Shown here piece by piece: positions 23,969 through 25,738 of a stretch of 42,727 nt of DNA. The DNA is taken from assembly GCA_028822935.1 (NCBI GenBank), contig JAPKCM010000038.1, forward strand, positions 1 to 42,727. The letters run 5' to 3'. Positions within the stretch are counted from its first letter, which is position 1. Each line of letters starts with the position of its first letter. The stretch comes from Akkermansiaceae bacterium. Its GTDB lineage: Bacteria > Verrucomicrobiota > Verrucomicrobiia > Verrucomicrobiales > Akkermansiaceae. The translations under genes and the position numbers were made by a program. A model generated the notes under the pieces. That model had not been told where the DNA came from, ran no database searches, and saw only the letters and a list, made by a program, of their open reading frames with translations.

Positions 23969-25738
23969 TTATTTAGTGAGCGCGTCGAGGGTGGCGCGGA
24001 CGTTCCAGCGATGTGCGGCCAGGTGCTGGTGGGCCTCCTGGTAGGTGCAGCGGTGCAGGGTGGTGAGCATGCGGGCGGCACGGGCACGGAGCTTTTCGTT
24101 GGAAGCGTTGAGGTCGATCATGAGGTTGCCCTTCACCTTGCCAAGGCGGATCATGGTGCAGCTGGAGATCAGGTTAAGGGCGAGCTTGGTGGCGGTGCCG
24201 GCCTTGAGCCGGGTGGAGCCGGCGATGAGTTCGGGGCCGGTGGGGAGGTCGATTTCGACATCAGCGGAGGGCCCCTCGCGGTGGCGTGCGGGATTACAGG
24301 TCAGAAGGATGGTTCGGGCGCCGAGAGTGCGAGCCTTTTTCAAGGCGCCGTGGACAAAGGGGGTGTTGCCGGAGGCGGTGATGCCGCAAACAACGTCCTG
24401 ATCGTTCACACCGCGATCGGTGATGGCGATGGAACCGGACGGGGCGCTGTCTTCGGCGCCTTCGACGGCGCGGTGGAGGGCCTCATGGCCGCCGGCGATG
24501 ATTCCCTGAATGAGATCGGGGGAGGCGCTGAAGGTGGGTGGAATCTCGCTGGCATCGAGAACTCCCAGGCGGCCGCTGGTTCCGGCGCCTACGTAAAAAA
24601 GGCGGCCTCCCTTTTTAAGATTTGCGTAAACGAGATCGACGGCGGCTTCGAGCTCAGCCTTGCGGTCGGCAAGGGCGTGGGTGACGGCTTCTTGGTCTTT
24701 GACGAAGAGTGTGACGAGGGCGGGGGTGTCGAGTTCGTCGAGGTGGGCGGAAGCGGGGTTGGCCTGTTCTGTCTCGGCGGTGGCGAGGTCCTCGGTGCGG
24801 TCGGCTGCTGGCTCGTTCGTGGCAGGTTCCGAGGTGGTGAGGGTTCCCTTGGAGGCGATGAAGGCTGCGCCGTGGGCTCCCGAGCGGCCGCAAATCTCGA
24901 CCTCGGCGTCGGGTGTGTGGCAGGCGAGGTGTTTCTTGAAGAGGTCGACGTACTTGGGCTGATGGGCAAAAACGCTACCCAGCAGGCAGATTGGGGGATG
25001 CTTGAAGTCGAGCCTGCTGGCCACCACTCCAGCGTATTCGGCGAGGCGGCGGGCACAGACGTCGAGGATGATATCAATCTTGGAGCCGGGGACTTCGGCG
25101 GCCTCGAAGACGAGGGGGGCGAGCTTGCCGATCGCAGACTTATCGGCTTCTTGAGCCCAGAGAACAAGGTCGTTGAGGGAGTTGAGACCGAGTTCGCATA
25201 AAAAGGATTGAGCGAGAGGATGGGTACGATTTTCGACATCATACATACGAAGGCAGTGGCGCAGTCCGTGAACCGCGATGTCGAAGCCGCTGCCGCGATC
25301 GCCGAGGAGTTGGCCCCAGCCGCCGGCTTTCTCGATTTTACCATTGCGGCGGCCATGGACGGCGGATCCAGTGCCGGAGATGACGATGATGCCGTCCTGA
25401 TCGCCGAAGGCGGCCGCTAGGCCACTTTCGCGGTCTCCGCCGGTGGCGATTTCGGCGTCGGGCCAAATGGTGGCGCCGAGGGTGGCGAGTTCGTCGGCCC
25501 CGGCAACCGTCGCGCAGCCGGCGAGAAAGATGCCGACGTGAGTGGCCTGGGAGGGAAGAGAACGCAGGAGGGTTTTGAGATCTGCTTGCTCAATGAGCCG
25601 GTAGTTGGCGGCAGGGAGGCGACCTCGGTCGAGGAGGGTGGATTGACCGTCGGGGGAGATCTGGAGGTAGACCCAGTCGGTCTTGGTGCCGCCGCCTTCG
25701 ATGCCGAGGATGTAGTTCGTTGCAGGAGCGAAAGCCAT
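23969..25738 (-). CDS. Fused BadF-type amino-sugar kinase and N-acetylmuramic acid 6-phosphate etherase
   Basis: A 589-residue bifunctional protein. Residues 1 to about 305 form a BadF/BadG-type (ASKHA) kinase: phosphate loop GIEGGGTKTD (12-21), a central DQDGIIVISGTGSAV and GGWGQLLGDRGSG. Kinases of this type phosphorylate GlcNAc and, in the MurK group, MurNAc. An acidic Ala/Glu/Thr-rich linker (about 306-340) leads to a complete MurQ etherase: SIS fold with GAGTSGRLGVLDASE, then E398 (SEIPPTF) and E429 (VEGAEDS). Their 31-residue spacing equals that of E. coli MurQ Glu83 and Glu114. The C-terminal helical tail (HRCTYQEAHQHLAAH) is also MurQ-like. MurQ cleaves the lactyl ether of MurNAc-6-phosphate, giving GlcNAc-6-phosphate and D-lactate. 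The fusion would couple phosphorylation and ether cleavage in cell-wall sugar recycling. The large antisense frame at 24011-25201 is a shadow. Confidence 0.93.
   Translation of the reverse strand: MAFAPATNYILGIEGGGTKTDWVYLQISPDGQSTLLDRGRLPAANYRLIEQADLKTLLRSLPSQATHVGIFLAGCATVAGADELATLGATIWPDAEIATGGDRESGLAAAFGDQDGIIVISGTGSAVHGRRNGKIEKAGGWGQLLGDRGSGFDIAVHGLRHCLRMYDVENRTHPLAQSFLCELGLNSLNDLVLWAQEADKSAIGKLAPLVFEAAEVPGSKIDIILDVCARRLAEYAGVVASRLDFKHPPICLLGSVFAHQPKYVDLFKKHLACHTPDAEVEICGRSGAHGAAFIASKGTLTTSEPATNEPAADRTEDLATAETEQANPASAHLDELDTPALVTLFVKDQEAVTHALADRKAELEAAVDLVYANLKKGGRLFYVGAGTSGRLGVLDASEIPPTFSASPDLIQGIIAGGHEALHRAVEGAEDSAPSGSIAITDRGVNDQDVVCGITASGNTPFVHGALKKARTLGARTILLTCNPARHREGPSADVEIDLPTGPELIAGSTRLKAGTATKLALNLISSCTMIRLGKVKGNLMIDLNASNEKLRARAARMLTTLHRCTYQEAHQHLAAHRWNVRATLDALTK

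Follow-up and report, generated by a model that had tools for sequence, protein, structure and literature searches.

Does a single polypeptide that joins a sugar kinase to a MurNAc-6-phosphate etherase (MurQ) carry out two consecutive steps of peptidoglycan sugar salvage, or do its halves serve separate ends? This question is raised by one gene in the window, the whole 42,727-nucleotide stretch of Akkermansiaceae DNA that was analyzed (Table 1). Soil and water harbor abundant Verrucomicrobiia, and among open-licence PMC papers we found little on their cell-wall salvage. On the basis of sequence comparison and structure prediction, we consider it likely that the protein is a cytoplasmic, bifunctional enzyme of peptidoglycan sugar salvage, a MurNAc (probably also GlcNAc) 6-kinase and MurNAc-6-phosphate etherase in one. 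The N-terminal half would use ATP to phosphorylate MurNAc at O6, and probably also GlcNAc as C. acetobutylicum MurK does; the C-terminal half would remove the lactyl ether of MurNAc-6-phosphate, giving GlcNAc-6-phosphate and D-lactate; and NagA, encoded elsewhere in the genome, would carry the product on to GlcN-6-phosphate. We further infer that MurNAc enters unphosphorylated by a non-PTS route, and that joining the two halves may serve balanced expression or proximity rather than a closed tunnel.

A kinase and an etherase in one open reading frame

The original prediction of a kinase and MurQ in one chain was confirmed: its coordinates are correct, the coding strand is the minus strand and family models match both halves. 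A 396-aa open frame on the opposite, plus strand (window positions 24011-25201) is most likely a coding-strand shadow of the fusion gene.

Table 1. Positions of the fusion gene, its domains and its key codons in the window.
Feature	Window positions	Strand	Basis or detail
Whole fusion gene	23969..25738	minus	589 aa; ATG at 25738, stop at 23971-23969
BadF/NagK/MurK-type sugar kinase half, residues 9-296	24851..25714	minus	PF01869 at 11-295; 8zo3 fold alignment 7-300, Z 32.3
Asp102 codon, predicted catalytic base of the kinase	25433..25435	minus	Asp in 43/43 type-A kinase halves
Linker, residues 300-311	24806..24841	minus	pLDDT <50
MurQ (MurNAc-6-phosphate etherase, SIS fold) half, residues 318-589	23972..24787	minus	MurQ models; 4s12 aligned to 316-589, Z 32.6
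Glu398 codon, equivalent of E. coli MurQ Glu83	24545..24547	minus	alignment with E. coli K-12 MurQ
Glu429 codon, equivalent of E. coli MurQ Glu114	24452..24454	minus	alignment with E. coli K-12 MurQ

The kinase half matches Pfam BcrAD_BadFG (PF01869, BadF/BadG/BcrA/BcrD ATPase family) with 77 bits against a cut-off of 31.5, and its phosphate loop, GGGTKTD, occupies residues 15-21. By both profile and fold, the nearest solved relative is C. acetobutylicum MurK (8zo3), which a profile of 19 kinase halves ranks first among solved structures (207 bits) and which aligns with the kinase half over 290 residues (rmsd 2.6, 27% identity). Other fold matches were S. tokodaii hexokinase (Z 29.8), human NagK (29.3), a Chromobacterium kinase (27.8), T. 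forsythia K1058 (25.8) and the T. forsythia MurNAc kinase MurK (25.7). The NCBIfam equivalog NagK_SO3507 was not reached (59.5 against a cut-off of 370), and no PF03702 (AnmK) match was found in the fusion protein at E up to 0.1. The expectation of a MurK-like kinase joined to MurQ is thus supported by the family models and by the profile and fold match to C. acetobutylicum MurK, with which the kinase half has in common the glycine-rich loop, the catalytic Asp and the GTG and GGWG motifs. The clostridial enzyme is, however, standalone, and its NDAE and GDEGS motifs are GDRE and GDRGS in the fusion kinase; kinases of the common (type-A) fusions keep the GDEGS Glu in 0/43 cases, as opposed to 15/30 of the other kinases compared. 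The reaction pair that we propose is that of T. forsythia MurK and MurQ, encoded in the murTKQ operon, for which PMC5790795 describes entry of unphosphorylated MurNAc and no PTS. There the two enzymes are products of separate genes, and MurK is 18% identical by fold alignment and has other lactyl-pocket residues.

Asp102 and Asp147 are invariant in all 43 type-A kinase halves, and the kinase is therefore under constraint. From motif context rather than alignment, we take Asp102 as the equivalent of D95 of T. forsythia MurK (PMC10465942). In that report the lactyl group is given space in T. forsythia MurK by T94 and by S133-P134-L135, and an Asn at the T94 position, carried by most homologues and by glucose and GlcNAc kinases, would hinder or strain it. 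At these places, as judged by motif, the fusion kinase has GGWG and Gly101 instead of the T. forsythia residues, and across the type-A halves Asp102 is preceded by Ser in 17, by Glu in 13, by Asn in 7 and by another residue in 6. GGWG is also present in human NagK and C. acetobutylicum MurK, which have Thr and Asn, respectively, before the catalytic Asp. Because C. acetobutylicum MurK (GGWG, Asn) accepts MurNAc as well as GlcNAc, slightly favoring the latter (PMC5790795), and human NagK combines GGWG with Thr, the pocket residues do not settle specificity.

An alternative reading is that the kinase half is in essence NagK, a GlcNAc kinase, and that MurQ is fed by AnmK or a PTS, the two halves being parallel producers of GlcNAc-6-phosphate rather than steps in series. 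The presence of human and bacterial NagK among the fold matches speaks for it, as does the slight GlcNAc preference of the clostridial MurK (PMC5790795). The scarcity of Asn before the catalytic Asp speaks against it, weakly, since C. acetobutylicum MurK with Asn takes MurNAc and human NagK has Thr. We regard this reading as unlikely, in view also of the genome content described below.

The MurQ half exceeds the cut-offs of two NCBIfam MurQ models, PRK05441 at residues 318-584 (342.6 bits, cut-off 168) and TIGR00274 at residues 323-582 (309.8 bits, cut-off 302). Residues 8-273 of E. coli K-12 MurQ align with fusion residues 323-589 at 43% identity with one gap, and in this alignment the spacing of Glu398 and Glu429 matches exactly that of E. 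coli Glu83 and Glu114, as had been predicted; we take the latter pair to be catalytic, and both glutamates are invariant in the 29 aligned fusions. MurQ structures were the top fold matches, with Y. enterocolitica MurQ (4s12) aligning over 270 residues at an rmsd of 1.4. The E. coli, H. influenzae and Y. enterocolitica enzymes (4lzj, 4s12) are standalone, however, and E. coli MurQ is supplied by MurP (PTS) or AnmK. The fusion stops at E. coli residue 273 of 298 and thus lacks the final 25 residues that the standalone enzyme has; the view that both halves are complete needs correcting on this point.

An AlphaFold2 model built on the 29-fusion alignment predicted both halves well (mean pLDDT 89.4), with a pTM of 0.59 and the poorly predicted linker listed in Table 1. 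Between the two domain matches lie 9 to 35 residues in type-A fusions and 40 to 48 in those of a second type (type B). With the linker poorly predicted, the pTM at this value and the length variable, nothing points to a tunnel; a closed hand-over of MurNAc-6-phosphate is thus not supported, and neither is the proposal that the sugar is converted without release of the intermediate. The variable inter-domain stretch, together with the split descendants described below, argues for a joint that is of use without being strictly required.

Spread and history of the fusion

How widespread the fusion is was assessed in a class sample of 188 Verrucomicrobiia genomes, 88 of which matched with an E-value of 1e-20 or lower. 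One match spans both halves in 70/188 genomes, among which one row reaches only residue 509 and another starts at residue 68. A single open frame for both halves was confirmed on DNA in 31 of the 70, including G239 and G110, which have one stop each in the match table; the remaining 39 rest on the match table, where no internal stop is reported. Of the other 18 matched genomes, seven have a MurQ match only, three have adjacent unfused genes (G190, G218, G251), three carry the second fusion type (G039, G048, G233) and five are partial or kinase only; G010 and G075, counted as MurQ-only at the class threshold, have BadF-type kinases elsewhere in the genome. An assembly accident is ruled out by the occurrence in 70/188 genomes, several of them single-contig (G042, G072, G078, G132). 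In a wider phylum sample, 47/96 genomes matched at E up to 0.001 and eight gave a both-half match, seven from the window's own class and one (G004) from another. Among the 88 matched genomes none other belongs to the window's own family, f1; the fusion is present in a further Akkermansiaceae locus, L068.

The arrangement is thus common in Verrucomicrobiia, and of the possibility that it is a known, ubiquitous one only half held: it is widespread in this class, and a full-text search of open-licence PMC papers found, among those listed, none describing a kinase-MurQ fusion. On this literature basis MurK and MurQ are a known pair of enzymes, and their fused form is a new variant common in one class.

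The kinase tree, with 83 rows, places all 43 type-A fusions in one group (support 100/99), which also holds seven unfused kinases that are best read as later splits or losses. An extra unfused kinase of the fusion clade (L153, G195:C2) was seen in a genome that also carries a fusion. The second, divergent fusion type (L010, L011 and L158, families f3 and f62), which has the longer linkers and a longer MurQ tail, clusters with Bacillota kinases (90/92). A single clade for both fusion types is not rejected by the kinase tree (p-AU 0.133, 40 rows) and is rejected by the MurQ tree (p-AU 5e-6, 45 rows), in tests that used these subsets of rows and groups named after the first tree was seen. Because the MurQ tree strongly rejects one clade, two separate fusions within Verrucomicrobiia are the better reading, of which the kinase tree alone gives no proof. 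If true, the joining of the same pair on two independent occasions would speak for some benefit in keeping both steps together. Rows left out of the kinase tree were L063 (the L003 locus), L142 (the L012 locus), L013 and L014 (L149 covers the L013 locus and L014 is a close relative), and the partial L024, covered by L160; L042 and L064 are identical in this tree.

Salvage genes in genomes with the fusion

We compared the pathway company of the fusion across the 188 class genomes. AnmK is present in 5/70 fusion genomes (one, G184, partial), 0/3 genomes with the second type and 6/7 with a lone MurQ. The corresponding counts are 4/70, 3/3 and 7/7 for an AmpG-like permease (at least 60 bits, our own threshold, with none attaining the curated 350), 10/70, 2/3 and 3/7 for a PTS EIIC (PF02378) over the cut-off, and 44/70, 3/3 and 6/7 for NamZ. 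Fisher tests of fusion against lone-MurQ genomes gave 1e-5 for AnmK and 1e-7 for AmpG, values that are descriptive and overstated, as relatives are counted as independent and five of the seven lone-MurQ genomes come from one family. Relative to all 118 other genomes there was no difference for AnmK (5/70 vs 6/118, p 0.54) or PTS (p 0.34), whereas the AmpG-like permease was rarer in fusion genomes (4/70 vs 29/118, p 7e-4). These distributions suggest two alternative layouts in the class: in one, AnmK and an AmpG-like permease accompany a lone MurQ; in the other, the common kinase-MurQ fusion mostly occurs in the absence of AnmK, AmpG and PTS. The two layouts yield a testable prediction as to which sugar is recycled, free MurNAc or anhydro-MurNAc.

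Two patterns from a first sample did not carry over to the larger one. NamZ, considered as the supplier of MurNAc, had been present in 7/8 type-A genomes and is not enriched in the larger sample (44/70 vs 64/118, p 0.29); a general absence of PTS from fusion genomes, with 0/8 over the cut-off at first, gave way to the 10/70 above.

The window's own genome is exceptional among fusion genomes in carrying AnmK, a 228-bit homologue on contig C121 (L163:8489-9712, G000:C121) as compared with about 450-470 bits in family f5. Contamination as its source was rejected: C121 has DUF1501-like and window-type genes by inspection, and its GC and tetranucleotide make-up are similar. With its own AnmK, this genome could also derive MurNAc-6-phosphate from anhydro-MurNAc. 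NagA, expected elsewhere in the genome, was found there over its cut-off (284 bits), and neither a PTS EIIC of PF02378 nor an AmpG-like match was detected. The prediction that MurNAc enters unphosphorylated and not by a PTS therefore fits with the missing EIIC and the presence of NagA, and is tempered by the AnmK of this genome and the EIIC of 10/70 fusion genomes; among the flanking genes scanned, no MurNAc importer was identified. NamZ in this genome lies inside a 785-aa protein, behind a beta-lactamase-family domain (L164:3011-5365, G000:C86), so that this salvage pathway has a further fusion besides that of kinase and MurQ. Open frames with NamZ in other genomes of the class are about 770-850 aa long.

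No neighbor cluster recurs in more than 3 of the 12 fusion loci with flanks, and among 10 chosen flanking proteins scanned there was no wall-recycling enzyme or importer; these proteins include DNA ligase, RecQ, PDZ proteases, a sulfatase and an ABC ATPase, and an L,D-transpeptidase (YkuD) domain occurs in one of them (L063).

For the reading of two parallel GlcNAc-6-phosphate producers, the window's own genome is the favorable case, as the fusion is its sole BadF-type kinase match and AnmK is present there. Across the class the balance goes the other way: 57/70 fusion genomes have neither AnmK nor a PF02378 PTS EIIC, although incomplete genomes could hide genes, so that no other maker of MurNAc-6-phosphate, and hence no supplier of the etherase, was found there among those searched (AnmK, PF02378). 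A further possibility is that the kinase half acts on anhydro-MurNAc or a MurNAc-peptide rather than on free MurNAc. AnmK is absent from 65/70 fusion genomes, and its reaction could fall to another enzyme; moreover, NAGK, a related kinase, is reported to phosphorylate muramyl peptides (PMC9477735). We nevertheless judge this very unlikely, as both sequence and fold place the kinase half in the BadF/NagK/MurK family, it has no AnmK match, and an AmpG-like permease is found in only 4/70 fusion genomes. In addition, MurQ requires a peptide-free sugar. Serial action on free MurNAc thus remains our preferred reading, although several points weigh against it: a lactyl pocket unlike that of T. forsythia MurK, the missing GDEGS Glu, the AnmK of the window's own genome, the lack of NamZ enrichment, and scanned flanks devoid of wall-recycling enzymes and of an importer.

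In animals, GKRP is a descendant of MurQ that controls a sugar kinase, glucokinase. That one half of the fusion regulates the other in this manner, with only one of the two reactions real, is extremely improbable: GKRP domain models and structures (Z about 22) do match the MurQ half, but the MurQ models score far above the GKRP models and the aligned fusions invariably keep the catalytic residues of both halves. A broader proposal keeps both reactions, and holds that the fusion from MurNAc to GlcNAc-6-phosphate evolved twice, that the common type mostly replaced the AmpG/AnmK and PTS routes, and that the halves communicate, through hand-over of MurNAc-6-phosphate or control of the kinase by the sugar-phosphate site in the MurQ half, as a bacterial parallel to glucokinase and GKRP. 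Taken as a whole, we consider this proposal doubtful and quite speculative.

Unfused pairs outside the phylum

We examined the best 80 loci of a GTDB scan. Twelve are one-frame fusions, all from Verrucomicrobia or groups within, and no fusion outside Verrucomicrobia was found among these 80. A 692-aa frame at L105 was rejected as a fusion, as its N-terminal part resembles wrong-frame sequence. In 15 of the 68 non-fusion loci the two genes are adjacent but separate and share a strand, with the kinase first in 12: Poribacteria (3), Alkalicoccus, Lachnospiraceae, Cytobacillus, Eremiobacteria, Oscillospiraceae, an alphaproteobacterial MAG, Hydrogenedentota, Anaerolineae and Rhizobium. MurQ comes first in one spirochaete and two Clostridia. 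At two more loci, L081 and L110, the kinase lies about 1.1 kb upstream, and at the other 51 the DNA examined contains MurQ but no kinase match.

The pairs in Poribacteria, Bacillota, Hydrogenedentota and others place the same two families side by side but unfused, and some adjoin ABC importer genes: the Cytobacillus pair lies beside genes for an importer solute-binding protein and two permeases, and the Alkalicoccus pair beside one for a solute-binding protein. These neighboring kinase and MurQ genes in other phyla resemble the T. forsythia murTKQ operon (PMC5790795). As a separate observation, a frame of about 550-600 aa at L080:853-2640 (minus strand) has two MurQ-like matches, comparable with the tandem SIS layout of animal GKRP, and frames of the same size range with two separate MurQ-like matches each, in the same GKRP-like layout, were seen in further genomes (for example G006, G009, G011, G016 and G022).
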